In this document: in pieces, positions 6,079 to 29,522 of the stretch | Numbering within the stretch: the stretch's first letter is position 1 | Layout of the letters: every line of letters begins with the position of its first letter | Source: [Lactobacillus] rogosae | GTDB lineage: Bacteria > Bacillota > Clostridia > Lachnospirales > Lachnospiraceae | NCBI GenBank assembly: GCA_900112995.1 | Contig: FONU01000025.1 | Span: forward strand, 1-43,807 | DNA: 43,807 bases | Reading direction: 5' to 3' | Translations under genes and position numbers: made by a program | The notes under the pieces: generated by a model | Seen by the model: only the letters and a program-made list of their open reading frames with translations | Told to the model about the DNA's origin: nothing | Database searches by the model: none

Positions 6079-6204
6079 CAAAAAATGTGCAAAGCACATT
6101 CCAACACCAGGCATGGTAATCTGCGTCTAACTACAGATTCGTGTGGGTGTGCATCATCGGCACATAGTGCCTTTTGTGTAATAAAGAATTCCTATTACAC
6201 AAAA
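6079..6204 (-). repeat. Structured dispersed element, copy 1
   Basis: Read on the minus strand it holds, in order: a 12-bp perfect stem (arms 6193-6204 and 6172-6183); GGCAC-TAT-GTGCC (6159-6171); a less regular middle; and AATGTGC-TTT-GCACATT plus further T (6081-6100), an intrinsic-terminator shape. It aligns with 29383-29522 over its whole length with about one 1-nt gap. It lies between the tRNA-Leu terminator and the DPM1-like gene. Confidence 0.75.
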
Positions 6205-6232
6205 AAGACTTCCTACTCATTTGTAGGAAGTC
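6201..6232 (-). terminator. Intrinsic terminator of the tRNA operon
   Basis: On the minus strand GACTTCCTAC (6223-6232) pairs perfectly with GTAGGAAGTC (6207-6216) around a 6-nt loop, followed by six T (6201-6206). It begins 3 nt after tRNA-Leu. Its T-run doubles as the edge of the adjacent repeat element. Confidence 0.88.
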
Positions 6233-6235
6233 CTA

Positions 6236-6322
6236 TGCCGGCAACGGGAATCGAACCCGTATGGGAGTATAAGTCCCGCAGGATTTTAAGTCCTGTGCGT
6301 CTGCCAGTTCCGCCACACCGGC
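6236..6322 (-). tRNA. tRNA-Leu (anticodon TAA)
   Basis: An 87-nt class II tRNA. The acceptor stem GCCGGTG pairs with TGCCGGC plus discriminator A. The anticodon arm is CAGGA-CTTAAAA-TCCTG, giving anticodon TAA, which reads UUA/UUG. The long variable arm (GCGGGACTTATACTCCC region) and the T arm GGGTTCGATTCCC are intact. CCA is not encoded. Confidence 0.96.
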
Positions 6323-6405
6323 TCTTTGGTATATCTTAATACATAATCCAAACTTGGTGCAGCCTAAGTTGCACTTTACTGCCTGCAAGCCAGTATTATG
6401 TAGAA

Positions 6406-6487
6406 TGGGCGGAGAAGGATTCGAACCTTCGAAGGCAGTGCCAGCAGATTTACAGTCTGTCCCCTTTGGCCACTCGGGAATCCACCC
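6406..6487 (-). tRNA. tRNA-Tyr (anticodon GTA)
   Basis: An 82-nt class II tRNA. The acceptor GGGTGGA pairs with TCCGCCC plus discriminator A. The anticodon arm is CAGACTGTAAATCTG, giving anticodon GTA. A long variable arm and the T arm AGGTTCGAATCCT are present. It is the first gene of a two-tRNA operon, 83 nt upstream of tRNA-Leu. CCA is not encoded. Confidence 0.96.
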
Positions 6488-6528
6488 ATAATTCCTAAGT
6501 CAGTCTGCTAACTCAGGAAACTTTTTGC

Positions 6529-6557
6529 ATTTTATCATATATATCTTATCTTGGCAA
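6529..6557 (-). promoter_or_regulatory. Strong SigA-type promoter of the tRNA operon
   Basis: On the minus strand TTGCCA (6552-6557), a 17-nt spacer and TAAAAT (6529-6534), with an extended TGA before the -10. The predicted start is near 6522, about 35 nt before tRNA-Tyr. Confidence 0.8.
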
Positions 6558-6580
6558 GTGTTTTTTACAATATTTATTAA

Positions 6581-7477
6581 TTAATAAAACATATTAACCG
6601 AAGTAATACGAAATCCCTTATACTTCTTAAAATTATCATTGCTAATAGCTGATGTGTAATCATATATATTAACAGTTTCTTCTGGCACGAAAGATATCTT
6701 TACAATACCATCATTTCCTACAATATCTGCTGGTATCTTTAAAGTATTAAGGTTATCATTCACCTTATCTTCTCTTTCCCTGTCACCATATTCATTCTTA
6801 TGGTACTTAACCGCTCCCTCTGTTTCATTATATGCAGTTATAGTTCCAATATATTCATCATTGGCATATACTTTAGTATCTGTATTATAGCTTGCACCAT
6901 ACACTTCAAGCACAATGTCTTTCTCAACTCTTGTTACAAATCTGTAATAAAGTGCTGCCTCATTACCTTTATTAGTATATATCCCTGTATGAAGTGAATA
7001 GAAACCCTTTGTGTATCTGTAAGGAATGTTCAATGCAGAAGCTATTGTCTTATCCTCATCTTTATCAGCTGTAGAATTATCATCAGCATCTTCTGATACA
7101 TAATTATTCTCTGCTGCTAACATTTTTTGGAAATATTTATCAATGGCAGAATCTCTGTTAGACTCCACACTATCCTCATTAACCTCATCAGCCTCTTCTT
7201 CATCATCTGTTATAATATCGCCATAAAGCTTCTGTTCTTCTAATAACTTTTTATATTCTTCAAGCTTTGATATATCATATATCTCTGTATTACCAAAGTA
7301 ATAGTCAAGACCATTTTCACCCGGCCACTTTGACAATTCACCATCTACATAGTAAAGCTTATATTCATCTGATACATCAAGCTTACTGCCAAGCACAAGC
7401 GTTGCAAGATAGAACACTGCAAGAATCACAACAATAATATATGCAATTATATTAATACATTTTTTCTTATTATTCAT
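6581..7477 (-). CDS. Membrane-anchored extracytoplasmic protein of unknown function
   Basis: 298 residues. One N-terminal membrane segment (about 9-30) follows a basic start, consistent with a signal anchor. A Tyr-rich region comes next, then a very acidic stretch of D/E/N/S (about 88-150) and a C-terminal domain that looks all-beta (KDIVLEVYGASYN, TKVYANDEYIGTITAYN, DGIVKISFVPEE). The last part is reminiscent of carbohydrate-binding jelly rolls, but no signature is certain. AGGAGA lies 7 nt before the ATG. It is the last gene of the cluster, 15 nt after the PIG-V-like transferase, so it may help assemble or bind that glycan. No function is assigned. Confidence 0.75.
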   Translation of the reverse strand: MNNKKKCINIIAYIIVVILAVFYLATLVLGSKLDVSDEYKLYYVDGELSKWPGENGLDYYFGNTEIYDISKLEEYKKLLEEQKLYGDIITDDEEEADEVNEDSVESNRDSAIDKYFQKMLAAENNYVSEDADDNSTADKDEDKTIASALNIPYRYTKGFYSLHTGIYTNKGNEAALYYRFVTRVEKDIVLEVYGASYNTDTKVYANDEYIGTITAYNETEGAVKYHKNEYGDREREDKVNDNLNTLKIPADIVGNDGIVKISFVPEETVNIYDYTSAISNDNFKKYKGFRITSVNMFY

Positions 7478-7492
7478 CCCAACTCTCCTTTT

Positions 7493-8686
7493 CTACGCCG
7501 TAAATGCGTTGACACCTGCTGTAAACCATAACCATATAAGAAATGCTTCCATAACTACTGCAAGAAATACCGCCAGCCACTTTAAGTCTTTCTTATCTGC
7601 AAAATAATCATATAAACCAATGTATACAACATAACTTCCAGCTATAAATCTGCACATTGACATAACTCCGCCCGTAAAAGGAATTATAAGTGTTATGACA
7701 GCAAATAGAACTTCTGAATAATATCTACATTTAAGCATATATACATACACGATTATTGCCAGTATCATAACCAGCGGAATCCAGTATCTTTCTGCATATA
7801 TATTATTAAAGAAATCCCATATCATATTACCTATCCAGCCAGCACCATCTTCTCTCCATGCTGCCTGCACATTTCTGAACGCCCACGCATCTCCTGTCAC
7901 ATAATACAGATGCATCATATTAACAAATATGCCTGCCGGACATAAGAATACCTGCAATATCTTAACTGGATTTTTAAACATATGTACTATAAAACTGCCA
8001 AGCTTTCCAAATGTTATCCTGCCCTCATATAAATCAAGGTACATCTGCAATACGAGCGGGAATACAAGTATAACACCAACTATTCTTGTACAGCTTGCAA
8101 GCATAGCCGCAGCTGCTGAAATCCAGTAATTATTAATATTGCCCTTTTCTTTTTTTAGATAGTAAAAGAACACTGCAATAAGCATCATAAATAATGTTTC
8201 TGAATATACACAATGAAGATAGAATGAGTATGGTCCCATATATACAAGAACCACTGCAAAATATCCTAATCTGTCAGGCTTATAAAGCCTTACTGTCTTA
8301 ACAAGAAATATCCCCATTATATACACATATATTAAGCTGAGAAATATTCCTGCCTGTGCATAATTAAGGAAGAAAAATATGTATTTAAACAATCTTATTG
8401 ATACTGGAAATAACGGAAAAAATGCCCAGTTAGCCTGTCCATCTCCCGGCTTTATGCTTCCAGAAAGACTATATCCTTTTTCAGCAATCTTAATATACCA
8501 GTCTGCATCGCCACCAAGAAACATCTTAGCAAATGTAATATTATTGCCAAATGCTGAATTGGTAACACAGCCAATAAATATATAAAATAGTCTTGATACA
8601 AGCAAAATCAAAAGAACATTTTTCGCAATCTGCTTATTCTCTTTAGTAGCAATCCTGTTCCATAATCCAACCGCCTTCTCCTTCAT
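7493..8686 (-). CDS. Polytopic GT-C glycosyltransferase, PIG-V-like mannosyltransferase
   Basis: 397 residues with about ten membrane helices. After the first helix comes DADWYIKIAEKGY (about residue 60), holding the acidic pair typical of lipid-donor GT-C enzymes, then WAFFPLFP (about 85-92). Both recall bacterial PIG-V/Mannosyl_trans2 proteins, which take sugar from a polyprenyl-phosphate donor on the outer membrane face. A GTG at 8725 is in frame, but AAAGG 7 nt before ATG 8686 (MKEKAVG) fits better. It follows rfbD after 91 nt and precedes the anchored protein by 15 nt. The DPM1-like enzyme at 5301 is a natural donor supplier. The exact sugar is not shown by sequence. Confidence 0.7.
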   Translation of the reverse strand: MKEKAVGLWNRIATKENKQIAKNVLLILLVSRLFYIFIGCVTNSAFGNNITFAKMFLGGDADWYIKIAEKGYSLSGSIKPGDGQANWAFFPLFPVSIRLFKYIFFFLNYAQAGIFLSLIYVYIMGIFLVKTVRLYKPDRLGYFAVVLVYMGPYSFYLHCVYSETLFMMLIAVFFYYLKKEKGNINNYWISAAAAMLASCTRIVGVILVFPLVLQMYLDLYEGRITFGKLGSFIVHMFKNPVKILQVFLCPAGIFVNMMHLYYVTGDAWAFRNVQAAWREDGAGWIGNMIWDFFNNIYAERYWIPLVMILAIIVYVYMLKCRYYSEVLFAVITLIIPFTGGVMSMCRFIAGSYVVYIGLYDYFADKKDLKWLAVFLAVVMEAFLIWLWFTAGVNAFTA

Positions 8687-8777
8687 ACGTTTACCTTTCT
8701 TCTTAATTAGTAAATACGGATACACAATAACGAAATATTAAAGTTGTTGGGTTCTGACCCTGACATTATAATCATTT

Positions 8778-9716
8778 CTATTCGTTACCTGTAGCCTGTT
8801 CCTGTTCTTTTAAATATTTAATATACCTTTCCACAGCATTCTGCCAGGTTGGAAGCGGTGTAAATCCTGCCTCTTTAAGCTTTGATTTATCTAATCTTGA
8901 ATTAAATGGCCTTGCCGCCTTTGAAAGGCCATATTCTTCTGTGGATACCGGAATAACCTTAATATCCATTCCAGCCTGTCTGTATATTTCACACGCAAAA
9001 TCATACCACGAAATATAGCCACCCTCATTAGTTGCATGATAATATCCATATTTCTCTGTAGCTATCATATCAACTAATAATACTGCCAAATCAAGTGTAT
9101 ATGTTGGTGTTCCTATCTGGTCATTAACAACTCTTACAGTCTCGTGGTTCTTTCCAACCTTAATCATTGTCTTTATAAAATTATTGCCATTAGCACCGAA
9201 TACCCATGCTATTCTTACTATAAAATATTTTGAAAGTGTATCAGCAACCGCAAGCTCACCCTCAAGCTTAGTCTGTCCATATACATTAAGCGGCTTGTAT
9301 TCCTTGCAGTCCGGCTCCCAAGGCTTCTCACCCTGCCCATTAAACACATAATCTGTGCTTATATATACCATTTTACAATCAAGCTTCTTAGCCGCCTTTG
9401 CAATATTAGCTGTCCCTTTGGCATTGACAGCTCTTACCTTCTCAACCTTGTCATCATCTTCTGCCATATCTACTGCCGTCCACGCCGCACAGTGTATAAT
9501 AACATCTGGTGATACACTGCTTATAACCTCATCTACAACAGCCTCATCTGTTATGTCCATCTTGACATATTCCATTGTTGTAACAGCACTATTATCCTGA
9601 ATACCACTGTAATTATCAGCTATATCACTTCCTATTCCTGTGTACCCTCTTTTATCGAGTTCATTCATAACGTCATGACCTAACTGACCTGACACTCCTG
9701 TTACTAATACTTTCAT
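8778..9716 (-). CDS. rfbD: dTDP-4-dehydrorhamnose reductase (RmlD/RfbD)
   Basis: 312 residues, normal for RmlD. It makes dTDP-L-rhamnose from dTDP-4-keto-L-rhamnose using NAD(P)H. The Rossmann loop GVSGQLGHD is at residues 7-15. The catalytic triad region shows STDYVFNG and YGQTK (about residue 144), the SDR Tyr/Lys pair. RIAWVFG and the substrate-loop sequences also fit. GGAG lies 7 nt before the ATG. RmlA, B and C are not in this window. It sits 95 nt after a GT4 gene and has a possible promoter of its own at 9754-9784. It implies rhamnose, or a related 6-deoxyhexose, in the glycan. Confidence 0.92.
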   Translation of the reverse strand: MKVLVTGVSGQLGHDVMNELDKRGYTGIGSDIADNYSGIQDNSAVTTMEYVKMDITDEAVVDEVISSVSPDVIIHCAAWTAVDMAEDDDKVEKVRAVNAKGTANIAKAAKKLDCKMVYISTDYVFNGQGEKPWEPDCKEYKPLNVYGQTKLEGELAVADTLSKYFIVRIAWVFGANGNNFIKTMIKVGKNHETVRVVNDQIGTPTYTLDLAVLLVDMIATEKYGYYHATNEGGYISWYDFACEIYRQAGMDIKVIPVSTEEYGLSKAARPFNSRLDKSKLKEAGFTPLPTWQNAVERYIKYLKEQEQATGNE

Positions 9717-9753
9717 ACTTTCTCCTTAATGTCTTCTATTATCTTTCAATTTA

Positions 9754-9784
9754 ATTATAATCCAGCACATTAATACTATTACAA
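9754..9784 (-). promoter_or_regulatory. Possible internal promoter for rfbD and downstream genes
   Basis: On the minus strand TTGTAA (9779-9784), a 19-nt spacer and TATAAT (9754-9759). The spacing is longer than ideal. It lies in the 95-nt gap before rfbD. Confidence 0.4.
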
Positions 9785-9786
9785 AT

Positions 9787-9811
9787 ATTATTTATATACA
9801 ATATAAATAAT
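9787..9811. repeat. AT-only perfect hairpin after the GT4 stop codon
   Basis: ATTATTTATAT (9787-9797) and ATATAAATAAT (9801-9811) pair perfectly around ACA and touch the stop codon at 9812. There is no GC pair and only a poor T-run, so strong termination is unlikely. An mRNA 3'-end stabiliser is possible. Confidence 0.45.
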
Positions 9812-10897
9812 TTAATCACTTGTAATGAAATCATACACAACTTTCCCAAGTCTATCAGGTGCATATCTTTTAACTACATTTGCATATGCTTCTGTATCAA
9901 CCTCTGTATTATATGACAATAATTCATCTGCAAGATTGTTTATCTGCTCATATTCATTACATCTTATATTAAATGTATTAATATTGCCGTCTGTAATCTC
10001 ATCAAATATAGGAAGATTACTTGCTATAATTGGCTTTTTAAAACGCATAACCTCAATAATCGGCATACCAAACCCCTCGGCCTTCGACGGAAACACAAAA
10101 GCTGACATTGAGGCATACAGCTCGTGCTTTTTATCGTGGGTCACATAATCAAGATAAGTTATATCTTCATCTAACATCATTGCCGACCTTACAATCTGGT
10201 TAATCTCTTCTTCCTGCATCTTTCCACCAAGAATAAGTTTCTTCTTGCCACCCCGGTTCTTATATTGCAAATAGCCTTTTATAAGAAGGTCAACACCCTT
10301 TCTTTTCTCCATATTGCCAACATAAAGAAAATAATCATCATCTTTATTATCCCATTGCTTTTTAACAGGATTGGATATTATATAAGCATTAACATTCGCT
10401 ATGCTCTTAGCTTCCGGGAAAATTTCTTCCGTTGTCCTTTTGGTCTGTTCTGAATTATATAGAATCATATCTGTATTCTTAAGTGTCTTTTTAAGATTGT
10501 ACTTAAAATACATACTATATACTTGCCCGAAATATTCAACATATTCTATTGGAAACATATCGTGTATTGTAATCATAGTCTTAAAACTACCGCCGAGGTT
10601 AATCGGAATTATCGTATTAACTTCCCAGAATATATCAGGCTTAATAATATCAAGCTGCTTTTTCACATATGCAAAATAAGCATAAACTCCGGCACTCTTA
10701 TACACCTGTTTTCCCTTTGTATATACTTTTATTCCATTTTTAATAAATGACTTAATATATTCACTCTCTGCAACATCTGATATAAGAACGAATTCCAGAT
10801 CCTCATATTTCATAAGCTGCTTAAGAAAGTCATTAAGATACATTCCCACTCCGCTTGGTCTGCTGCCAAGCGTTCTTGCATCAACCGCTATCTTCAT
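9812..10897 (-). CDS. GT4 (group 1) glycosyltransferase
   Basis: 361 residues, GT-B fold. The N-terminal domain opens MKIAVDARTLGSRPSGVGMYL, an acceptor-side glycine loop. The C-terminal domain shows YVGNMEKRKGVDLLIKGY and the EX7E-type SKAEGFGMPIIEVM (about residue 272), which binds the nucleotide sugar. It adds one sugar from an NDP donor to a lipid-linked glycan on the inner membrane face. The frame opens at 10963, but AAGGA 8 nt before ATG 10897 and only 11 nt of gap to the preceding stop set the start. Donor and linkage cannot be read from the sequence. Confidence 0.87.
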   Translation of the reverse strand: MKIAVDARTLGSRPSGVGMYLNDFLKQLMKYEDLEFVLISDVAESEYIKSFIKNGIKVYTKGKQVYKSAGVYAYFAYVKKQLDIIKPDIFWEVNTIIPINLGGSFKTMITIHDMFPIEYVEYFGQVYSMYFKYNLKKTLKNTDMILYNSEQTKRTTEEIFPEAKSIANVNAYIISNPVKKQWDNKDDDYFLYVGNMEKRKGVDLLIKGYLQYKNRGGKKKLILGGKMQEEEINQIVRSAMMLDEDITYLDYVTHDKKHELYASMSAFVFPSKAEGFGMPIIEVMRFKKPIIASNLPIFDEITDGNINTFNIRCNEYEQINNLADELLSYNTEVDTEAYANVVKRYAPDRLGKVVYDFITSD

Positions 10898-10908
10898 CTT
10901 TTTAATCC

Positions 10909-11997
10909 TTATTCTGCATATTTGTCCATAATTCCTGCAATTATATGGGCTGACCTGTCCCACGAATGACTTGAAAGTACATTCTGCACTGCCTCGTCAC
11001 TCACCTTATTCTTTTCTAACAGCTCATCTATATTCACATCAGGCTTATGACAGTTGACATATGTAGCCGCATTTTTGTAAATCTCGTGCAGCACCGGAAT
11101 ATCACCAAGAACAATCTCAGCTCCCATACAGAGTGCCTCCATAGGTGGTATTCCAAAGCCCTCATAGGTTGATGGGAATAAAAATGCTTTGCAGTATTTC
11201 ATAAGTGCTCTTGCCTCTGAATCCCTGGCATAACCAATCGCCACTACATTGCCAAGCTTTTCTATTCCAGACCTGTCCCCAAGACTTTCACCTGCTATTA
11301 CATATGTACTTTCTGGGTGAAGCTTCGCATTATTAAGAATCCAGTTAAGATTCTTATTAGGTGCCAATGAAGCCATATACAGATAATATTTATGTCTTTT
11401 TATTCTTGAAGCATACTTGTCAAATATACTCTCGTCTATGCTGTTCACATCAAAGTGCTGCCAGCCATTGCCTGCAACTACTATTTCCTTACCATGGGTA
11501 TTATAATTATCAATGATTTCTTTTCTGGAAAACCCACTGACCGTTATTATCGCATCAGCACTCTTAAAGGCTTTAAGATACATAAGCTTTCTGAACAATA
11601 TCTCATGCCAGTCACCCGGCTCTCTAAAGAACTCCTTATGTGTCTTAAATGCTATGTCGTGTACCGTAACTATTCCATTTTTCATAAACAGTGATACTTC
11701 ATTACATAAATATACAGGCTTAGCCTTCTGCTTGTCCACATATCTCTGAAACGTGAACTGTTCCCACATTCTTCCAGATTTTCCAGCCAATATAACAATC
11801 TTAATGTTATTATAGTGTGTCTTATAGCTGTTAATCTCCGCAGATGTACCTTCTGAATCAATCTCGGGCACAGCTATCTCAACCTCGTAAGGCTTATCCG
11901 CCATATATTTATCAAGTTCTTTTGTTATTTGTCTTGCGTACCTCTGGACACCTTTAATATGTCCATACAAAAAGCTTCCATCAATAATATATTTCAT
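10909..11997 (-). CDS. GT4 (group 1) glycosyltransferase
   Basis: 362 residues, GT-B fold. It starts MKYIIDGSFLYGHIKGVQRYA, with GVQRYA as the N-terminal loop. FLYMASLAPNKN-type sequence (YYLYMASLAPNKNL) and PSTYEGFGIPPMEAL (about residue 280) form the donor-binding half. It resembles mannosyl/rhamnosyl transferases of capsule loci. GAGG 5 nt before ATG 11997 sets the start, replacing an upstream in-frame start at 12045 that would overlap the dehydratase gene. It lies 22 nt after the dehydratase and 11 nt before the second GT4, so it is translated as part of one operon. Confidence 0.87.
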   Translation of the reverse strand: MKYIIDGSFLYGHIKGVQRYARQITKELDKYMADKPYEVEIAVPEIDSEGTSAEINSYKTHYNNIKIVILAGKSGRMWEQFTFQRYVDKQKAKPVYLCNEVSLFMKNGIVTVHDIAFKTHKEFFREPGDWHEILFRKLMYLKAFKSADAIITVSGFSRKEIIDNYNTHGKEIVVAGNGWQHFDVNSIDESIFDKYASRIKRHKYYLYMASLAPNKNLNWILNNAKLHPESTYVIAGESLGDRSGIEKLGNVVAIGYARDSEARALMKYCKAFLFPSTYEGFGIPPMEALCMGAEIVLGDIPVLHEIYKNAATYVNCHKPDVNIDELLEKNKVSDEAVQNVLSSHSWDRSAHIIAGIMDKYAE

Positions 11998-12019
11998 AGT
12001 AACCTCTTTTTGCAGTTTC

Positions 12020-13903
12020 TTATTGTATATCATTATCCGATACATGGTCAGGCTTATAAGTTGGAACGAATTCCTTTACAAGCCGTCTTACTGCCATCGC
12101 ATCTTCTTTGTAAGCTGTTTCCTTAAGGACTTCTAGCTTGTCCTCAAAATTGTCTTTATCAAATTCAATAGGCTTGCCTATATGAATAAGCTTATTCTGT
12201 GTATCCTGAAGCCCTTCCTCTGCCATAAGAAGTTCTTCATATAACTTCTCACCAGGTCTTAAACCAGTATATTTAATCTCCATATCCACACCAAGTGTGT
12301 AACCTGATAGTCTTATAAGATTCTTTGCAAGGTCATCTATCTTTACCGGCTCACCCATATCAAGAATAAATATCTCACCACCCTTGGCGTATGCACCCGC
12401 CTGAATAACAAGCGACACGGCCTCCGGTATTGTCATAAAATATCTTATTATATCAGGGTGTGTAACTGTAACCGGACCCCCTGCTGCAATCTGCTTCTTA
12501 AAAAGAGGAATTACAGAGCCATTGCTTCCAAGTACATTACCAAATCTTACGGCTACGAATTCTGTATTAGATACTCCATTATAATACTGAATTATCATCT
12601 CACATATACGTTTTGTCGCACCCATTATATTAGTCGGATTAACGGCTTTATCTGTACTTATCATTACAAATCTCTTGGTATTATATTTGTCTGCCATTCT
12701 TGCAAGATTCCAGGTACCGGCTACATTATTCTTAACTGCCTCATTAGGGCTTCCCTCCATAAGCGGAACGTGCTTATGTGCCGCTGCGTGATATACAATA
12801 TCCGGTCTGTAATGTGAGAATATCCACTCAAGTCTTGTGTTATTTCTTATTGAACCAATAAGCGTCACCACATTGGCATAAGGACAATTCATCTTTAATT
12901 CCTGCTGTATATCATAGGCACTGTTCTCATATATATCAAATATAATAAGGCACTTAGGGTTATGCTTGACTAACTGCCTGCAAAGCTCAGAACCAATTGA
13001 ACCACCGCCGCCTGTTACAAGAACAGTCTTGCCCGATACATATCCAAGAATTGACTCCACATCAACATTGATAGGATCCCTTCCAAGTAAATCGTCCACA
13101 TCAACATTTCTGATATCCTGAACATTAATCTCGCCGTCCATCATCTGATACACGCCAGGTATAATCTTTAAATTACAGTTAGTTTCTTTACAGATATTAA
13201 GTATCTGTCTTTTAGTTTCCTGCGATGCTGATGGAATAGCAAATATTATCTCATCTATCTCATAGTATCTTGCATATTCCTTAATACGCTCCCTTGTTCC
13301 AACAATCTTAACGCCTCGTATATACTTTCCAACCTTTTTAGGGTCATCATCAATAATACATACAACCTTGGAATTATCAAGGTATCTTGAATTAGCAATC
13401 TCTCTCATAAGAACATTGGTAGCCTCACCGGCACCAATTATCATAATCTTAATCTGCTCTGATGTATGTCTGTATTCCTGTAAAAGTGTTCTTATAAGCC
13501 TGTACATAAAACGGCTCGCACACATTGCAACTATAAGAAATACTACTGACATAAAATAACAGGCTCTAGGAAGCGGTGTTCCCATAACTGTTGTAAGACA
13601 GACGTGTGCCACCTCCGATACAATACAAGCCTCAACTATCTTATAAAGCTCGGCTATACTCGCATACTGCCACAAACTGTGATACATTCTGAAACACCAG
13701 AATATAAGCAGTGTTATAAGTGTAAATGGTACGCAGGTACTCTTAAAATTCTGTATATATTGTGACTCTATCGCCGCCAGATCAACGTTAAACCTCATTA
13801 CCAGCGATATAAATACACAGCCGTTAACAAGAATTATATCTGTTATTATAAGAAAAAAGCGTCTGACTATTAACTGTAGCTTATCTTTCCTTGTCTCTTC
13901 CAT
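12020..13903 (-). CDS. Membrane-bound NDP-sugar 4,6-dehydratase (PglF/WbpM/CapD family)
   Basis: 627 residues, full length for the family. Four N-terminal membrane helices (about 15-130) precede a first Rossmann-like domain (IIGAGEATNVLMREI, about 150) and the catalytic SDR domain with TGGGGSIGSEL (about 296). The active-site strand is STDKAVNPTNIMGATK (about 417-432); it shows the Met/Lys pair that replaces the usual Tyr/Lys in this family. Relatives convert UDP-GlcNAc to UDP-4-keto-6-deoxy-GlcNAc. The aminotransferase at 15742 is a plausible next step. AGAGG lies 6-7 nt before the ATG, and the gene begins 2 nt after the upstream GT2 stop. Confidence 0.92.
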   Translation of the reverse strand: MEETRKDKLQLIVRRFFLIITDIILVNGCVFISLVMRFNVDLAAIESQYIQNFKSTCVPFTLITLLIFWCFRMYHSLWQYASIAELYKIVEACIVSEVAHVCLTTVMGTPLPRACYFMSVVFLIVAMCASRFMYRLIRTLLQEYRHTSEQIKIMIIGAGEATNVLMREIANSRYLDNSKVVCIIDDDPKKVGKYIRGVKIVGTRERIKEYARYYEIDEIIFAIPSASQETKRQILNICKETNCNLKIIPGVYQMMDGEINVQDIRNVDVDDLLGRDPINVDVESILGYVSGKTVLVTGGGGSIGSELCRQLVKHNPKCLIIFDIYENSAYDIQQELKMNCPYANVVTLIGSIRNNTRLEWIFSHYRPDIVYHAAAHKHVPLMEGSPNEAVKNNVAGTWNLARMADKYNTKRFVMISTDKAVNPTNIMGATKRICEMIIQYYNGVSNTEFVAVRFGNVLGSNGSVIPLFKKQIAAGGPVTVTHPDIIRYFMTIPEAVSLVIQAGAYAKGGEIFILDMGEPVKIDDLAKNLIRLSGYTLGVDMEIKYTGLRPGEKLYEELLMAEEGLQDTQNKLIHIGKPIEFDKDNFEDKLEVLKETAYKEDAMAVRRLVKEFVPTYKPDHVSDNDIQ

Positions 13904-13905
13904 AA

Positions 13906-14982
13906 TTAACCTCTTTTTGATTTATCCATAAGTCCTGCTATTGTGCCTATTCCATAACTTAAATGAAGAAGCAGGAATAATACAGGAAGACAGGCATTAG
14001 TTATATTTCTTTTATCTTCAGCTTTAAATGCAGATACTGCCGCCATACCAGATGCCATTAAAGCATAGAGCACCCACATAACAGTTGTAAGCACTACTGT
14101 TACTTTTCTTAATGCCGAAATACCTTTTCCAAGTGTATGGTTGTGCCTTTTCTTAATGCACTCTGCAAGTCCTGTCGCTCCAATAACCGAACCTGAAGCT
14201 ATTATTGCACTGACAAATGCAAATGGCACAAAATGATATATGCTAAGGCACTTAGGACATACCTTGCTTGTCTTTCCTATCCAGTAGCCGTTAGCATACT
14301 TCTGCTTAAGCATTGCCTTAAGACTGCTTCTTGTATACTGGTATGATATTATATCAGGGTCAAAGCACAGCTTATATCCAGCTTTTCTCATTCTATAATG
14401 AATTTCATTATCTTCTGTACGCACAAGTTCCTCATTAAAGAAACCAACCTTTTCAAATACTTCTCTTCTATATGCTGCGTGAAATAACGATTTAACATAA
14501 GTCTTTCCAGGATTATTCCTGTATGAAGCAATGCTTGAACCAAACATACTGCTCTCTGCAAGAAGAAGTGTCTCCTTAAATGGAGTTGGCTTGTCTATTA
14601 TGTTAGGTCTTTGTCCACCACATATATATTCGCCTGTTTCAAGCACCCTCACATTCTTACTGACAAAATCCTCTGGAATTACAGCGTGTGCATCTACCTT
14701 TATTATCGCATCACCCTTATATTCCCTCAATGCAACGTTCCAGCCTGATGGAAGTGTCTTTTTAGGATTGTCAAGCACTACAACCCTTCTGAATTCATCT
14801 TTATTATCAAGTGCAAATTCACACATAAGTGCTCTTGTATTATCAGTTGATGCTCCGTCTACAAGCACAACCTCCATATTGTTATGGTCATAATCCTGAT
14901 TTTTAATACATTCTAATATTCCATTAATATTCTGTTCCTCGTTATATGCAATAACACACATAGTAATAAGCATATCAGACAT
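13906..14982 (-). CDS. GT2 glycosyltransferase with C-terminal membrane helices (ExoA-like)
   Basis: 358 residues. The GT-A core opens ITMCVIAYNEEQNI, has VLVDGASTDNT, a DAHAVIP metal site (about residue 97) and an acceptor-side ED (VRTEDNEIHYRMRKAGYKL). Three or so hydrophobic segments follow (about 247-345), anchoring it to the inner membrane, as in succinoglycan ExoA-type enzymes. AGGAG lies 7 nt before the ATG. It begins 3 nt after the sugar-transferase stop and its own stop is 2 nt before the dehydratase ATG, so translation is probably coupled. It adds an early sugar to the lipid-linked primer; which sugar is unknown. Confidence 0.85.
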   Translation of the reverse strand: MSDMLITMCVIAYNEEQNINGILECIKNQDYDHNNMEVVLVDGASTDNTRALMCEFALDNKDEFRRVVVLDNPKKTLPSGWNVALREYKGDAIIKVDAHAVIPEDFVSKNVRVLETGEYICGGQRPNIIDKPTPFKETLLLAESSMFGSSIASYRNNPGKTYVKSLFHAAYRREVFEKVGFFNEELVRTEDNEIHYRMRKAGYKLCFDPDIISYQYTRSSLKAMLKQKYANGYWIGKTSKVCPKCLSIYHFVPFAFVSAIIASGSVIGATGLAECIKKRHNHTLGKGISALRKVTVVLTTVMWVLYALMASGMAAVSAFKAEDKRNITNACLPVLFLLLHLSYGIGTIAGLMDKSKRG

Positions 14983-21027: not shown

Positions 21028-21083
21028 AAAAAGGCTCAGCCCTAGCTGCTGGAATTATCCATCAGCTTGAGGCTGAGCTTTTT
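21028..21083. terminator. Bidirectional terminator between cca and oleate hydratase
   Basis: GCTCAGCC (21034-21041) pairs perfectly with GGCTGAGC (21071-21078), with AAAAAG before and TTTTT after, so it works in both directions. The 29-nt interior has a second small stem, AGCTG with CAGCT. It lies 45 nt after the cca stop. Confidence 0.85.
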
Positions 21084-21208
21084 ATATGACAAATATTTTT
21101 GATATTCTGTATATAGCACAACAGTTTCCTGCACTATTTTAAAATGCTGCATTTTTAAACACTATGTTATCTTAAAACATCGTATTTATCAGACAACTAT
21201 CGCTTATA

Positions 21209-23197: not shown

Positions 23198-23231
23198 AAG
23201 CTTCTCCTTTCACATATCTGCTGACCTGCAA

Positions 23232-24629
23232 TCAACAATGTCCATAATTCTCATAGCTACTCTTCTTTACAGGAGTTTCACTCCATATCTTATCAGCATA
23301 TGGCTTCCACGCATTGGCATATGGAACACATTTGCTGCAAAGATGCTCTGCTGTCTCTGGCGACTGTAAATCTGTTGATTTAGCACCTGTTTCCTTGACC
23401 ATTTTCTGTAAAATCTCAGGATTTTCAAGCATAGGACAAGGTCTTAAATGATTCTTATTAAATGGCTGGTTCTTTCTATACGCCATAAATAATGGCTGGT
23501 TAAGTATCTCAAGTAATGTATTAGTTCTTATATTCGCACCTGAATAATGAATAAATACACAAGGCTCTGCATCACCATTTGCATTAATGTGGAAATAGTT
23601 TCTTCCGCCTGCTATACAGCCACCAACGAACTCACCATCATTCTGGAAATCAAATGTAAATAAGCCCTGTCCTGTTGTAAGACTTCTTATCTGTCTTATG
23701 CGGTCTTTCATATATATTCTCTGCTCTGGTGTTGGAAGCAATTCAACTGAAGCATCATTTCCAACTGGCATATAATGGAAATACATTGCATAACGGCAGC
23801 CCTTATCTACCATAAGCTGTATGAATTCATCACTTGTTACTGTTTCTGTATTCTTAGATGTGTAGCATATTGAAGTACCGAATACAAGACCATTTTTCTT
23901 TAAAAGATCCATTGCATTCATAACCTTGCCATATACGCCATCGCCACGTCTTAAGTCATTGACTGCTTCAAATCCCTCAAGACTTATTGCAAGATAAAGA
24001 TTGCCTACTCTTTTCATCTCCTGACAAAATGCTTCATCAACAAGTGTTCCATTAGTAAATGAAAGAAATGCACAGTCATTATGCTTCTCACATAACTTTA
24101 TTATGTCGCTCTTTCTTACAAGTGGTTCACCGCCTGTAAACATATAAAGATATATTCCTAACTCCTTGCCCTGTGTTACAACACTGTCCATTTCGTCAAA
24201 TGTAAGATTAAGCCTGTTGCCATATTCTGCCGCCCAGCAGCCTGTACAATGAAGGTTGCAGGCACTTGTAGGATCCATAAGAATGAGCCAAGGAACATTA
24301 CAGTTATACTTTTCTCTCATCTTTCTTATTGTCTTAGTTCCATTTAAGAATGCCTCAAATCCAAGATTAAGCACCATAGTCTTTAATACGCCAGGGTCTA
24401 TCTCATCTAATGCCTTATTAATATACTTATTAAGTGCACTGTCCTTATCTTTGATTTTCTTTCTCACGCTGTCAAAATCAACATCAAGCTTCTCACCATC
24501 CATATATTTTTCCATAAAATCGACAAGCTTTAATATCTCTTTTTCTCTATCTTTATCAAGATTTTTAATAACAACATCTGCTGCTTTTCCTACGGCTACT
24601 CTTCCTGCTTTATGTGTAATTGTTCCCAT
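23232..24629 (-). CDS. Radical SAM protein with C-terminal SPASM-like cysteines
   Basis: 465 residues. DPTSACNLHCTGCWAAEYG (about 117-135) supplies the CxxxCxxC motif for the 4Fe-4S cluster; FTGGEPLVR is the GGE SAM-binding motif; and LAISLEGFEAVND fits the barrel. The C-terminal third has CIAGG, CVFIH, CPM and CSKC, enough for one or two auxiliary Fe-S clusters. The N-terminal 110 residues are helical and unassigned. TTG 24638 abuts AGGAG, so ATG 24629, 9 nt from it, is chosen. It is sandwiched between a DUF308 protein and oleate hydratase. The substrate is unknown; a role in fatty-acid or membrane-lipid modification is inferred only from position. Confidence 0.88.
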   Translation of the reverse strand: MGTITHKAGRVAVGKAADVVIKNLDKDREKEILKLVDFMEKYMDGEKLDVDFDSVRKKIKDKDSALNKYINKALDEIDPGVLKTMVLNLGFEAFLNGTKTIRKMREKYNCNVPWLILMDPTSACNLHCTGCWAAEYGNRLNLTFDEMDSVVTQGKELGIYLYMFTGGEPLVRKSDIIKLCEKHNDCAFLSFTNGTLVDEAFCQEMKRVGNLYLAISLEGFEAVNDLRRGDGVYGKVMNAMDLLKKNGLVFGTSICYTSKNTETVTSDEFIQLMVDKGCRYAMYFHYMPVGNDASVELLPTPEQRIYMKDRIRQIRSLTTGQGLFTFDFQNDGEFVGGCIAGGRNYFHINANGDAEPCVFIHYSGANIRTNTLLEILNQPLFMAYRKNQPFNKNHLRPCPMLENPEILQKMVKETGAKSTDLQSPETAEHLCSKCVPYANAWKPYADKIWSETPVKKSSYENYGHC

Positions 24630-24743
24630 TTTTTTCAACTCCTGTCGCTTTTAATTTCTTCTTTATTGTATAAACTCTTATGATCTGTATTAATTATTTA
24701 TTAATATTCCAATTGTTAACTACTGCGTTAATTATCTATATAA

Positions 24744-25292
24744 TCACTGCCTTAATGCTTTGTCTGTCTTAACCGTATCTATCACGATAACAAGATTAAG
24801 AATTCCATCCATACACAGATTAAGCCCTATAAGCCTTACCATAAGCCTTGTTGTCTCACCCGGCATTAATATAAGCAATATGCCAATCGCAGCTACAATA
24901 ACTGCCAGTATAAGCATCAGCCACCAGCGGCTTATTCCAAATCTTTTGGAATCTATAGATGTCTGTATTTTAAATGTCGCATCTACAAGCATTACAATTC
25001 CTATACAGGTTGATAACAACTGCACCACTCTTGCTGTCCTGCACACAAATACAATTCCCACAATTGCAATAACTATACCAAGTGCCAGATCGAACTGGAA
25101 TGCAAGCTGGTAAGCATCTTTTGCAAAATATCCCATAATCTTGACTGCGCCGTATATTATCATATATATCCCGAATATTATACACACAACATCTAACGCA
25201 ATTCCCGGTGCTATAAGAAGTACAGCCCCAACAAGAATAAGACATATTGTAAGAATACTGTACATATTCTTAAAGTTCTTTATGCCATTCAT
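24744..25292 (-). CDS. DUF308/HdeD-like membrane protein
   Basis: 182 residues with about six membrane helices in pairs, each pair holding the HdeD/DUF308 pattern: LILVGAVLLIAPGIALDVVCIIFGIYMIIYGA near the start, and LAVIVAAIGILLILMPGETT in the third repeat. HdeD is an acid-stress membrane protein in enterics; the function here is unknown. AGGAGG lies 7 nt before the ATG. It is the first gene after the TetR gene's 3' hairpin and is followed by the radical SAM gene after 114 nt. This suggests a membrane-stress response together with oleate hydratase. Confidence 0.82.
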   Translation of the reverse strand: MNGIKNFKNMYSILTICLILVGAVLLIAPGIALDVVCIIFGIYMIIYGAVKIMGYFAKDAYQLAFQFDLALGIVIAIVGIVFVCRTARVVQLLSTCIGIVMLVDATFKIQTSIDSKRFGISRWWLMLILAVIVAAIGILLILMPGETTRLMVRLIGLNLCMDGILNLVIVIDTVKTDKALRQ

Positions 25293-25327
25293 AATGCTGC
25301 CTCCTTTCTTAAATATCTTTGTGAATT

Positions 25328-25365
25328 CTTTAACTTAAAGTTAGGATAACTCATTTTCATATCAA
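25328..25365 (-). promoter_or_regulatory. Possible promoter with overlapping palindromic operator for the DUF308/rSAM/oleate hydratase operon
   Basis: On the minus strand TTGATA (25360-25365) with a 16-nt spacer leads to a weak -10, TAACTT. The 13-bp palindrome CTTTAA-C-TTAAAG (25328-25340) overlaps the -10 and start region, a normal place for a TetR-type operator. Ownership by the adjacent TetR gene is a guess. Confidence 0.35.
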
Positions 25366-25371
25366 TTAATA

Positions 25372-25425
25372 CAGACAGATTGAGGGAAGTGTACCTAAAT
25401 TCGTACACTTCCCTCAATCTGTCTG
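25372..25425. repeat. 23-bp perfect inverted repeat between tetR and the DUF308 gene
   Basis: The arms 25372-25394 and 25403-25425 (beginning CAGACAGATTGAGGG) are perfectly complementary around the 8-nt loop CTAAATTC. Outer blocks TCATTTTCA (25351-25359) and TGAAAATGA (25424-25432) also match, separated on the left by 12 nt. There is no T-run on either side, so a classical terminator is unlikely despite its place 21 nt after the tetR stop. Confidence 0.85.
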
Positions 25426-25446
25426 AAAATGAAATTTTTATAAATG

Positions 25447-26010
25447 TTAGTTACTATTTGCTTTAGCTTTTGAAATCATAACTGGAAGTGTTGCATCTAT
25501 TGACTCAGAAATTCTTGCTATAAAATGCTCAAAATCAGCCTGCATACCACTTTCTATCCATTTATATGTACTTCCGATTATCGCATAGCCATAAAAATAC
25601 GACATGAATTCCAGATCCTTTTCTGAGATATTCTCGCCCTCACTCTTAGCCGCAATATAACTTCTTACTACCTCAGCGGTCATCTTTTCAAGATAATTGG
25701 TAATAATATCGCGGTTCCTGGAATTATAGACGTGTATCACAACGTCCTTATACTCCACAAGTATCGCCGCAGCCCTGCTGTACTCCTCATAAAATGAACC
25801 ATTACTTCCAGCTTCTCTTAAATTCTTCTCAATCTCTTCCATAAATATGTTATTGAGAACATCGTATATATCCTTAAAATAATAATAAAATGTGTTTCTG
25901 TTAATTTCACACTCATCACATATATCTTTAACCGTAACTTTATCAACTGATTTCTGCTTTAGTAATTTTAAAAGGCTTAACATTATAGCTCTTTTTGTAA
26001 ATTTAGCCAT
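25447..26010 (-). CDS. TetR-family transcriptional regulator
   Basis: 187 residues. The N-terminal helix-turn-helix reads VTVKDICDECEINRNTFYYYFKDIYDVL (about 29-56), with the FYYYF recognition end typical of TetR proteins. The helical C-terminal ligand domain is not classifiable by eye. The frame opens at GTG 26028. ATG 26010 (MAKFTKRA) is preferred because it matches usual TetR starts, though GAGG is 12 nt away, so the start is uncertain. It lies upstream of, and co-directional with, DUF308, radical SAM and oleate hydratase. A fatty-acid-responsive repressor would make sense but is not shown by sequence. Confidence 0.88.
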   Translation of the reverse strand: MAKFTKRAIMLSLLKLLKQKSVDKVTVKDICDECEINRNTFYYYFKDIYDVLNNIFMEEIEKNLREAGSNGSFYEEYSRAAAILVEYKDVVIHVYNSRNRDIITNYLEKMTAEVVRSYIAAKSEGENISEKDLEFMSYFYGYAIIGSTYKWIESGMQADFEHFIARISESIDATLPVMISKAKANSN

Positions 26011-26168
26011 AGTAATATCTATCCTCACATTCTAAATATATATTCAGCTTATATGTTCTATAATATAACACAGGTTTGGCTTTTCGCCTACCTTAAAAAT
26101 CCAACTTTAATTTAATTTTTATACCATATTATTATTTCAAATATAAATTCAGCCATATCTTTTAAAAT

Positions 26169-26231
26169 GTAAAGAGCTAACCATTATATGCCACAAAGCT
26201 ATGCCTGCATATTAATGATTAGCTCTTTTAC
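26169..26231 (-). terminator. Long-stem terminator after ppdK
   Basis: GTAAAGAGCTAA (26169-26180) pairs with TTAGCTCTTTTAC (26219-26231) with one bulge, and the stem continues through ATTA and TATGC with a few mismatches. ATTTTAAA follows on the minus strand. It begins 46 nt past the ppdK stop. The T-tract is modest. Confidence 0.55.
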
Positions 26232-26277
26232 TATTATGATAACACAATCACACCAATACCTGTGTAAATAATCCGAC

Positions 26278-29163
26278 CTAGTTATCTTTATTCTTATTCT
26301 CTTTATAAGCCTTCTTCGCTTCTGCTATTCCTGCTTTAAGTCCAGCCACCCCTGCAAATGCTACCTCTTTACCGGCCTTGGCGGCTTCCTTACCCACCTT
26401 GACAGCCTCTTTAGCTACTTCCCTGCCTACCTTGGCGGCTTCGTTAGCAGCTTTCTTAGCTTTCTCCTTAAGCTCATCTGTATCTATGCCTTCCTTAGCC
26501 GCGGCATTAGTGTCACCTTCGCTGTCATTCTGCAATTCGCTGGCAATTGCTGCCTGTGCTGCTGCAAGTCTTGCAATAGGCACTCTGAATGGTGAACAGC
26601 TTACATAATCAAGTCCTGCCTTATGACAGAATTCTATGCTTGATGGATCTCCACCGTGCTCTCCGCATATTCCGCACTTAAGTGCTGGTCTTGTCTTTCT
26701 TCCGTTGGCAACTGCCATTTTAACAAGCTGTCCTACACCATTCTGGTCTAATCTTGCAAATGGATCTGACTCATATATCTTGCTCTTATAATATGAGTCA
26801 AGGAACTTTCCTGCATCATCTCTTGAAAATCCAAAAGTCATCTGTGTAAGATCATTAGTACCAAATGAGAAGAACTCTGCTTCTTCTGCAATCTCATCAG
26901 CAAGAAGTGCCGCTCTTGGAATTTCTATCATTGTACCAATCTTATACTTGATATCTGAATTCTTTTCTTTCTTAACAGCTTCCGCTTCTTCTATTACAAC
27001 ATCTTTAACGAACTTTAATTCTTTCTTCTCGCCCACAAGAGGTATCATTATCTCTGGTGTAATCTCATAGCCTTTTTCTTCTGAAACTTCAATCGCAGCT
27101 TCCATTACTGCTCTTGTCTGCATTCTTGCAATCTCTGGATATGTTACTGCAAGACGGCAGCCTCTATGTCCCATCATTGGATTGAACTCGTGAAGTGCCT
27201 CACATTTTGCTTTAACTTCTTCTACTGTAAGTCCCATATCATCTGCAAGTGCCTTAATATCTTCTTCCTCTGTTGGCACGAATTCGTGAAGAGGTGGATC
27301 AAGGTATCTTACAGTCATTGGCCTGCCTTCAAGTGCTTCATACATAGCCTTGAAATCTGCCTTCTGGAACTCACCAATTGGCTTTAATGCTTCTACTCTC
27401 TTCTCCACTGTATCAGAAAGAATCATTCTTCTGAACTTAGGAATTCTGTCTTCACCAAAGAACATATGCTCTGTACGGCAAAGTCCTATTCCCTCAGCAC
27501 CAAGCCTTACAGCATTCTTAGTATCTGCTGGTGTATCTGCGTTAGTTCTTACACCAAGCTTTCTATATTCATCAGCCCAAGCCATAATTCTTCCAAAATT
27601 ACCACTTACAGTAGCTTCCACTGTCTTAATATCGCCTTTGTATATCTTACCTGTTGAACCATCAAGTGATATATAATCCCCATCTGTAAATGTATATCCA
27701 CCAAGTGTAAACTGCTTAGCTTCCTCGTCTATAGATATTGCTCCACAGCCTGAAACACAACAAGTACCCATACCTCTTGCAACTACAGCAGCGTGTGATG
27801 TCATACCTCCCCTTACTGTAAGTATGCCCTGTGAAGCGTGCATACCTTCTATATCCTCTGGAGATGTCTCAAGTCTTACAAGGATAACTCTTTCTCCCTT
27901 GCCGCCTTTTCCAAGTTCCTTGGCTTCTTCGGCTGTAAATACTACTTTACCTGCGGCAGCTCCAGGAGATGCTGGAAGTGCTTCTCCAATAACTTCCCCT
28001 GCCTTAAGTGCATCAGTATCAAACATTGGGTGTAATAACTGGTCTAAAGACTTAGCTTCTATTCTCATTACTGCTTCTTTAGGTGTTATCATTCCCTCAT
28101 CTACAAGATCACACGCAATCTGGATAGCCGCCTGTGCAGTTCTCTTGCCGTTACGTGTCTGCAAGAAATACAATTTGCCTTCTTCTATAGTAAATTCCAT
28201 ATCCTGCATATCTTTGTAGTGGTTCTCAAGCTTCATTGCAAGTTCCATAAACTGTGAATAACACTCTGGAAGGTCTTTCTCAAGCTGTGTTATTGGCTGA
28301 GGTGTTCTGACACCAGCAACTACGTCCTCGCCCTGTGCATTGATAAGATATTCTCCGTATATTCCCTTAGCACCTGTAGATGGATTTCTTGTAAATGCTA
28401 CACCAGTTCCTGATGTATCACCCTTATTACCAAATACCATAGTCTGTACATTAACCGCTGTTCCCCAGTCGCCCGGAATATCATTCATTCTTCTGTATAC
28501 AATTGCCCTAGGGTTGTCCCATGAACGGAATACTGCCTTAACTGCTTCCATAAGCTGAACCTTAGGATCCTGTGGGAACTCTTCACCCTTCATAGCTTCC
28601 TTGTATACAGCCTTAAATCTTACAATAAGTTCTTTTAAATCATCTGCTGTAAGCTCTGTATCATATACAACACCCTTATCAGCCTTAACTTCATCTATAA
28701 TCTTCTCAAAATATGACTTAGGAACTTCCATAACAACATCTGAGAACATCTGTATGAATCTTCTATATGAATCATACGCAAATCTTGGGTTACCTGTCTT
28801 AACCGCAAAGCCCTCAACTGCCACATCATTAAGTCCAAGATTAAGTATTGTATCCATCATACCCGGCATAGATGCCCTTGCACCTGATCTTACAGAAACT
28901 AAGAGAGGATCCTGTGTATCCCCGAACTTCTTTCCGTTATACTCCTCAAGCCAGCCAATAGCTTCAAATATCTGAGCTTGTATCTCATCTGTAATCTGCT
29001 TTCCGTGTCTGTAATATTCAGTGCAGGCCTCTGTTGTAACTGTGAAACCTTGTGGAATTGGCATACCAAGCCATGTCATCTCTGCAAGATTAGCTCCTTT
29101 TCCACCAAGTAATGGCCGCATTGAAGCGTTGCCTTCTGAAAATCTGTAAACCCATTTCGCCAT
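26278..29163 (-). CDS. ppdK: Pyruvate, phosphate dikinase with an extra Ala/Lys-rich C-terminal tail
   Basis: Interconverts pyruvate, ATP and Pi with PEP, AMP and PPi in central carbon metabolism. The order is normal: N-terminal ATP-grasp domain (LLGGKGANLAEM; VRSGARASMPGMMDTILNLG), swivelling domain with the phospho-His in GGMTSHAAVVARG (about 456), and the C-terminal PEP/pyruvate barrel with GTNDLTQMTFGFSRDD and the catalytic Cys in CGICGEHGG (about 824). Typical PPDK ends near residue 875. This one runs to 961. The extra part (about 876-961) is a charged linker then Lys/Ala/Val helical repeats (such as AKVGREVAKEAVKVGKEAAK), ending KENKNKDN. GGAGGG is 6 nt before the ATG. It has its own promoter at 29226-29254. 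Confidence 0.96.
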   Translation of the reverse strand: MAKWVYRFSEGNASMRPLLGGKGANLAEMTWLGMPIPQGFTVTTEACTEYYRHGKQITDEIQAQIFEAIGWLEEYNGKKFGDTQDPLLVSVRSGARASMPGMMDTILNLGLNDVAVEGFAVKTGNPRFAYDSYRRFIQMFSDVVMEVPKSYFEKIIDEVKADKGVVYDTELTADDLKELIVRFKAVYKEAMKGEEFPQDPKVQLMEAVKAVFRSWDNPRAIVYRRMNDIPGDWGTAVNVQTMVFGNKGDTSGTGVAFTRNPSTGAKGIYGEYLINAQGEDVVAGVRTPQPITQLEKDLPECYSQFMELAMKLENHYKDMQDMEFTIEEGKLYFLQTRNGKRTAQAAIQIACDLVDEGMITPKEAVMRIEAKSLDQLLHPMFDTDALKAGEVIGEALPASPGAAAGKVVFTAEEAKELGKGGKGERVILVRLETSPEDIEGMHASQGILTVRGGMTSHAAVVARGMGTCCVSGCGAISIDEEAKQFTLGGYTFTDGDYISLDGSTGKIYKGDIKTVEATVSGNFGRIMAWADEYRKLGVRTNADTPADTKNAVRLGAEGIGLCRTEHMFFGEDRIPKFRRMILSDTVEKRVEALKPIGEFQKADFKAMYEALEGRPMTVRYLDPPLHEFVPTEEEDIKALADDMGLTVEEVKAKCEALHEFNPMMGHRGCRLAVTYPEIARMQTRAVMEAAIEVSEEKGYEITPEIMIPLVGEKKELKFVKDVVIEEAEAVKKEKNSDIKYKIGTMIEIPRAALLADEIAEEAEFFSFGTNDLTQMTFGFSRDDAGKFLDSYYKSKIYESDPFARLDQNGVGQLVKMAVANGRKTRPALKCGICGEHGGDPSSIEFCHKAGLDYVSCSPFRVPIARLAAAQAAIASELQNDSEGDTNAAAKEGIDTDELKEKAKKAANEAAKVGREVAKEAVKVGKEAAKAGKEVAFAGVAGLKAGIAEAKKAYKENKNKDN

Positions 29164-29225
29164 AAGCTTCCCTCCATTATTCCTATAACGTATTTAGTTA
29201 TTACGTCCGTTAATTTATTGTTAAA

Positions 29226-29254
29226 AGTATAACATACTTTTATTAATACATCAA
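29226..29254 (-). promoter_or_regulatory. ppdK promoter with a palindrome over the -10
   Basis: On the minus strand TTGATG (29249-29254), a 17-nt spacer and TATACT (29226-29231). The 19-bp perfect palindrome AAAAGTAT-3-ATACTTTT (29223-29241) spans the -10 and the 3' half of the spacer. A protein bound there would block polymerase, so repression is likely. The leader is about 56 nt. Confidence 0.6.
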
Positions 29255-29382
29255 CGAGTTCTAAGCAATTCATATATTGTTTTAATTTTATGCTGTATTT
29301 ATATTGTATTCAATTTATGGAATTATATTCCTGCCCTTATTACTTCCTATTCTTATTACTAATATTATCTTGCTTTATATTT

Positions 29383-29409
29383 AAAAAAAGAATGTGCAAA
29401 GCACATTCT
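29383..29409 (-). terminator. Intrinsic terminator within repeat copy 2, after the YibE/F gene
   Basis: On the minus strand a perfect 9-bp stem (29401-29409 with 29389-29397) and a TTT loop, then a run of T (29383-29388). It is 88 nt past the stop codon at 29497 and is the only good terminator there. Confidence 0.8.
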
Positions 29410-29522
29410 CGCACCAAATATGGTCACTTACGACACACTACAGCTTCACACAAGTGTGCAGATTGGCACATAGTGCCTTTTATGTAACAGGGAATTCTAT
29501 TGAAATTTCCTATTACATAAAA
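29383..29522 (-). repeat. Structured dispersed element, copy 2
   Basis: On the minus strand: a long outer stem of about 17-19 bp (core TTATGTAA 29513-29520 with TTACATAA 29480-29487); GGCAC-TAT-GTGCC (29465-29477); CACAC-TT-GTGTG (29447-29458); then AGAATGTGC-TTT-GCACATTCT plus T-run (29383-29409). Against copy 1 the outer stem shows a paired A-T to G-C change. The element overlaps the 3' end of the YibE/F gene. Confidence 0.78.

Follow-up and report, generated by a model that had tools for sequence, protein, structure and literature searches.

Intrinsic terminators provide the DNA motif at which group IIC introns insert (PMC4424553), and recognition of a DNA stem-loop is described as well (PMC10190682), according to the sections of the two papers available to us. 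The SPRITE repeat is presented, in the accessible part of its report, as a terminator-like sequence located near gene ends, for which neither a duplication nor an empty site was found (PMC3049150). Template switching has been described as a source of arm homogenisation and spacer inversion (PMC8604942), and its action on inverted repeats is also described elsewhere (PMC8794818), as far as the available portions of both papers go. The element analysed here is about 130-145 nt long. An outer palindrome is followed by a core that contains an inner stem and by a 3' hairpin ending in a T-run. The start of the element tends to lie in the T-tract immediately behind a terminator-like hairpin, and the two share one orientation.

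The window, a 43,807-nucleotide stretch of DNA from [Lactobacillus] rogosae (genome G000), carries two copies on the minus strand, at 6079-6204 (copy 1) and 29383-29522 (copy 2). A sequence-only reading had paired these two stretches as copies of one dispersed unit, and its features lie where it placed them. Chance likeness is ruled out by the 19 places in the genome that match copy 1 with E ≤ 2e-6 (copy 1 included); by DNA and covariance-model searches, about 30 copies are present, extending the family beyond the noted pair. The reading made no mention of the terminator-like hairpin that adjoins the minus-strand 5' end of both copies (6205-6234 and 29525-29544), and it missed what is probably a third copy, represented by an internally deleted remnant with a weak score. 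The features are as follows.

6205-6234, minus strand: host terminator-like hairpin behind tRNA-Leu (6236-6322); landing site of copy 1
6172-6206, minus strand: copy 1, T-run and shortened outer palindrome, 5' end of the element
6159-6171, minus strand: copy 1, GGCAC-TAT-GTGCC hairpin; read on the plus strand it is followed by TTTT and is terminator-like in reverse
6101-6158, minus strand: copy 1, core with the inner long-range stem
6080-6100, minus strand: copy 1, 3' hairpin AATGTGC-TTT-GCACATT with T-run
29525-29544, minus strand: terminator-like hairpin within the last YibE/F codons; landing site of copy 2
29478-29523, minus strand: copy 2, T-run and outer palindrome, giving the YibE/F ORF its last codons and stop
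29465-29477, minus strand: copy 2, GGCAC-TAT-GTGCC hairpin
29409-29464, minus strand: copy 2, core with the inner long-range stem
29383-29408, minus strand: copy 2, 3' hairpin AATGTGC-TTT-GCACATT with T-run
39559-39622, minus strand: probable third copy, an internally deleted remnant (TATGTGCCGATGATGCACATTCTTTTTT) recognised by reading (E 0.17), with a deletion resembling that in L018

The outer stem is TTTTGTGTAA/TTACACAAAA in copy 1 (6172-6204) and TTTTATGTAA/TTACATAAAA in copy 2, and the GGCAC-TAT-GTGCC hairpin is identical in the two. Folding z-scores for the minus strand are -3.2 (copy 1) and -5.9 (copy 2), none of 200 shuffles folding as well as either copy on either strand. A Pfam scan of 19 of the 61 listed ORFs of the window revealed no transposase. 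The 3' end of the YibE/F gene holds copy 2 sequence (29497-29537), and its homology to four congeners stops at 29527-29537. The neighbourhoods of the PPDK-like gene, which lies next to copy 2, yielded no convincing element in 80 relatives (best E 0.28, synteny being unconfirmed).

The distribution of the element was determined with a covariance model built from 15 copies of G000, at a cut-off of E ≤ 1e-3. In this model (R1) the small GGCAC hairpin is placed two columns off; the genome's own copies and diverged ones were still recovered. Thirty-one distinct places were found in G000 once antisense matches to the palindrome had been removed by hand count, one of which (C15:31027) looks unrelated on reading. 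Matches at the same cut-off occur in 13 of 41 genomes (G000 and 40 relatives), reaching 57 in G024, 26 in G006 and 19 in G020 with antisense palindrome matches counted in; 12 of 21 congeners and all 16 genomes from other families gave none. In a family-wide sample of about one genome per genus, at least 91 of 299 genomes, in 91 of 298 genera, match at E ≤ 1e-5, a lower bound owing to stricter filters and to the scoring of ten candidates per genome. The family bearing the element is probably the Lachnospiraceae.

Every genome has its own version of the element. The 3' hairpin is AATGTGC..GCACATT in G000, GAGTTCGC..GCGAACTC in G006 and GTGTGCGC..GCGCACAC in many copies of G024. Minimum-energy folds of 12 representatives of different sequence nevertheless contain the outer palindrome in 11 cases and a separate 3' hairpin in nine; the region between the two is variable, and on reading L061 (G004), L066 (G023) and L276 (G024) fold differently there. 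At least three types coexist in G000 (L004, L084/L085 and L043/L044), and L016 combines the body of one type with the 3' hairpin of another. Near-identical copies lie in unrelated surroundings: L084 and L085 of G000 are 98% identical with flanks at 50-53%, and the copies of G006 have a median core identity of 93% against flank medians of 49-50%. Decayed and deleted copies are also present. The palindrome pattern alone is enriched over a reversed control in G006 (32 versus 4) and G024 (52 versus 7) but not in G023 (4 versus 19). Seven outer palindromes of G024 (L264, L269, L272, L273, L277, L279 and L283) lie beside T-runs without a core; in G006, the one case of a core-less palindrome that could be resolved is a deletion product.

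Searches of plasmids with the G024 and G061 queries and of phages with the G006 query gave no match, nor did any of five exact patterns, the last of them taken from a second repeat (see below), in viral contigs. The G061 query matched 19 records labelled 'Bacteriophage sp.'; unverified records of this label from human faeces carry the element (L377-L382: MT835487.1, MT836217.1, MT835478.1 and others). Of eight proteins tested from three such records, seven have a Pfam match, and the families include pyruvate kinase, adenylosuccinate synthetase, BipA and DHDPS. As these are bacterial housekeeping enzymes, we treat the records as mislabelled bacterial DNA.

The position of the copies relative to terminators was scored by taking the best hairpin whose end lies no more than 3 nt from the T-run. 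With a limit of -8 kcal/mol or stronger, such a hairpin directly precedes the T-run in 74 of 104 full or nearly full copies and at 40 of 181 control T-runs (Fisher p 4e-16, a rough value only, as G006 and G020 share sites and the 104 copies are partly dependent). The set, from which truncated copies and remnants were excluded, comprised 22 copies from G000, 20 of the 21 sense-strand copies of G006 among the matches listed, 18 from G020 and 44 from G024; the controls were runs of five or more T's outside long ORFs at the same loci. The proportion is similar in each genome (16/22 in G000, 13/20 in G006, 13/18 in G020 and 32/44 in G024), and an earlier scoring gave 65-77% per genome and 11% for the controls (250 runs sampled from 1223). 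In other genera, a strong hairpin was present at 10 of 11 loci (11 genera). Structures found directly upstream include tRNA-Leu (copy 1), RNase P RNA (L054), SRP RNA (L061), a T-box (L192) and a c-di-GMP-I riboswitch (L070). Among the 30 copies scored without a strong hairpin, some have a long or imperfect one on reading; none is visible at L202, L203 and L200. Both neighbouring genes are co-directional with the element in 19/22 copies of G000, 12/19 of G006, 10/17 of G020 and 21/42 of G024. For 12 of the 42 copies in the last genome, the longest upstream ORF is antiparallel to the element, so not all copies stand behind a gene end. Stacking is seen in G024, where L209, L214, L216 and L219 each follow the 3' hairpin of a further copy. 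In the closely related L206, L216 and L223 the 3' arm is constant and the host T-runs differ, which suggests that the T-run derives from the host.

The proposal that the unit is a portable terminator is partly right. Its ends are indeed terminator-like in both directions; as a rule, however, the element sits behind a terminator that was already there. A second, unrelated multi-hairpin repeat of 125-135 nt (L331:3234-3368, minus strand; L357-L370) starts with GCGCGAGCAGCGATGAGAG or a similar sequence behind a T-run. It has 14 matches in G002, 11 in G012 and none in G000 or G006, and all 14 copies checked are flush behind a strong terminator-like hairpin. This choice of target is thus not unique to the element family.

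Conservation of pairing was assessed by counting two-sided, one-sided and unpaired cells, which represent sequences and not events. Across 15 copies of G000, two-sided, one-sided and unpaired cells number 10, 14 and 4 for the outer stem and 10, 18 and 14 for the long-range inner stem, four of whose six pairs show two-sided changes. In 30 copies of G024 the corresponding counts are 47, 6 and 11 for the outer palindrome, 17, 2 and 4 for the inner short-loop hairpin, 16, 5 and 5 for the 3' hairpin, and 1, 14 and 20 for the long-range stem; an alternative pairing of the 5' strand of that stem gives 7 two-sided and 17 unpaired cells. Two-sided changes in G024, unlike those in G000, are thus nearly confined to the short-loop palindromes (80 two-sided and 20 unpaired cells taken together). 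In every test the two-sided cells outnumber those of all 500 shuffles, while the count of pair types was reached by 0 to 48 of 500. Pairing is conserved, in the inner stem too, as DNA or RNA. The general statement that structure is kept is supported beyond the single pair on which the sequence-only reading had based it, two-sided changes being found elsewhere, including the inner stem. The compensatory change cited in the outer stem does preserve pairing; as it can also arise by DNA template switching, it is not in itself proof of selection on an RNA.

Several observations point to copying from arm to arm within the outer palindrome. In L186, L187, L210 and L211, odd bases in the T-run of the host recur as mirror images in the 3' arm, and in L301 the mirroring includes bases of the host hairpin itself. 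The lengths of the T-run and the A-run are correlated (rho 0.49, p 0.002, n = 38 of the 44 G024 copies), and the orthologous valS copies of G006 and G020 carry the loop of the palindrome in opposite orientations. A caution follows: where a perfect stem has a short loop, compensatory changes do not, on their own, have to mean a functional RNA.

Evidence for movement comes from the valS T-box leader, which could be read in 15 of 22 congeners, the other seven giving no match, a fragment only, or a retrieved stretch that lacks a T-box motif. The element lies directly behind the T-box terminator in G006 and G020 (2 of 15). A short variant is present in G014, a different repeat in G002, G012 and G017, and neither repeat in the remaining nine (G001, G003, G005, G008, G009, G013, G015, G016 and G021), although TTTTTATAGGATTAGGAA after the T-run of G005 is a possible remnant of the outer palindrome. 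In the two genomes carrying it (L192), which belong to related species, the element, with its own terminator-like 3' hairpin, separates the T-box terminator from the start of the downstream gene, which we take to be ValS-like from its reading; either transcription passes through the element, therefore, or another promoter is used. G006 and G020, which share about 95% identity over 2.1 kb, have the valS copy and several others in common. The one resolved difference between them is a deletion in G006, the others being shared, truncated or ambiguous, and no clean same-species empty site was seen among the differences compared. Mobility is accordingly supported by presence and absence at one orthologous site in different species and by copies that are nearly identical although their flanks are unrelated, and not by a same-species empty site. 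L028 (G000), L183 (G006) and L059 (G021) have the same neighbourhood with an element in all three, which may reflect descent or repeated insertion; some copies may be old. Another short dispersed repeat of G006 (L284:1244-1363) is matched at several places in G020, where the orthologous site has a different, shorter sequence.

The description as a MITE-like mobile unit was the best of those put forward. In the wider sense of a short non-coding mobile repeat it applies, given the dispersed copies, the unrelated flanks and the presence and absence at one orthologous site. Terminal inverted repeats, on the other hand, are not seen: on reading, the 5' end TTTTTATGTAATAGG and the 3' end GCACATTCTTTTTT are not inverse copies, the 5' end being a self-contained palindrome. 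T's stand on both sides of the element, but with a 3' boundary not fixed to the base a target-site duplication cannot be asserted.

Among the competing explanations, a small plus-strand protein opening MCKAHS deserves virtually no credence. Both window copies do have the open frame (84 and 31 codons), but an ORF of at least 31 codons with that opening is kept in only 5 of the 22 G000 copies (a sixth, L028, opens MCFAHS and runs for 56 codons), the ATGTGC start, which lies inside the 3' hairpin, is absent in 12 of the 22, and the peptide reading is rejected on these grounds. It seems improbable, too, that the element is a functional structured RNA, a regulator or a second terminator or insulator, spread by selection and kept behind genes against read-through from both sides. 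The terminator-like hairpins in both directions would suit such a role, as would the 10 two-sided cells in four of six pairs of the G000 inner stem, the excess of two-sided cells over any of 500 shuffles and the recurrence of the outer palindrome (11/12) and the separate 3' hairpin (9/12) in representatives of differing sequence. The same inner stem, however, has a single two-sided cell against 20 unpaired in G024 (7 against 17 in the alternative pairing), the element is patchy among congeners, copies are decayed or deleted, and the element also separates valS from the T-box terminator, a position in which a further terminator should do harm. No Rfam family matches the element at curated cut-offs, the window copies giving only matches far below them.

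The element might alternatively be a remnant or satellite of a known machine, either the ends of an IS200/IS605-type (Y1) transposon or a degenerate group IIC intron; this reading, which overlaps with the one preferred below and would name the enzyme, we regard as rather unlikely. Hairpin ends and the absence of inverted repeats recall IS200/IS605. Y1 transposase (PF01797) is encoded in 11 of 16 genomes, and its presence does not track the element: Y1_Tnp was not found in the element-bearing G023 (94% complete) but is present in G002, G003 and G016, genomes with no element match. The flanks of five Y1 loci (L252, L255, L256, L257 and L260) show no such ends on reading, and the covariance model matches only two Y1 loci, weakly (L255, E 0.0045; L261, E 0.013), which we take as chance. 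With no clear co-occurrence and no such ends at the loci read, Y1 transposase was rejected as the mover. As to the intron, insertion of group IIC introns at intrinsic terminators, reported in the available part of PMC4424553, speaks for the idea; against it, no group II intron of Rfam matches at curated cut-offs, or even at E ≤ 1 on the two window copies.

The explanation that we prefer, and consider probable, is that of a non-autonomous, non-coding mobile element that inserts in one orientation, preferably into the T-tract directly 3' of intrinsic-terminator hairpins. Its mover would most likely be a trans-acting enzyme recognising a stem-loop followed by a T-tract, perhaps on single-stranded DNA, in the manner of Y1 transposases or group IIC introns. 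At the 3' foot of the outer palindrome an A-run would pair with the host T-run and may aid the choice of site. Since the 3' end of the element is itself a hairpin followed by T's, every copy would offer a fresh target, leading to head-to-tail stacking of the kind seen in G024. After insertion, template switching during replication may homogenise the arms of the palindrome, sometimes together with the adjacent host T-run, and the inner stem is conserved as a structure, in DNA or RNA; older copies are seen to decay through deletions and point mutations. A search for an autonomous copy, in the form of left and right ends split around a gene, yielded none in G024 (60 DNA matches, with 40 of 154 candidates scored). 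It is conceivable, if only tentatively and with the balance against it, that one transposition machinery, as yet undescribed, serves at least two unrelated families of structured repeats in this bacterial family, using a terminator hairpin and T-tract as attachment site, with the same motif at the 3' end of the repeat, pairing of A-run and T-run, and matching to the host site by template switching.

The family is widespread and apparently undescribed: common as the element is, none of the libraries searched has a family name for it, and a literature search found no published description, a weak negative as most subscription papers lie outside its coverage. It belongs to a known kind, the short non-autonomous mobile repeat, with an unusual target rule. 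As it lands on terminators, including that of a T-box leader, its insertion could alter read-through and the 3' ends of genes, and it provides a test case for asking which enzymes read terminator hairpins in DNA.

Comparison with the systems introduced above delimits the element further; for each of them the likeness is drawn from those portions of the cited papers that were available. Group IIC (bacterial class C) introns resemble it in inserting at terminators, as it does itself, but they are ribozymes with a reverse transcriptase, whereas the element is about 135 nt long and non-coding and has no group II match in Rfam. REP sequences with their TnpA-REP (RAYT) proteins and IS200/IS605-derived MITEs have in common with it the hairpins and a possible recognition of single strands (PMC8266576). 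Unlike in REP/RAYT systems, a GTAG (or CGTC) foot is not conserved, GTAG being seen on reading in some copies and not in other subfamilies; unlike for IS200/IS605-derived MITEs, no matching Y1 transposon ends were found. Inverted repeats maintained by template switching show the same homogenisation of arms and inversion of the spacer (PMC8604942, PMC8794818), but here the copying of arms seems to extend into the host T-run beside a mobile element. The pneumococcal SPRITE, BOX and RUP repeats are likewise short, structured, intergenic and present in many copies (PMC3049150). SPRITE, as described in the available text and thus by description, not by sequence, is itself a terminator-like stem, whereas the present element is a multi-hairpin unit that stands in fixed orientation behind a separate hairpin of the host.
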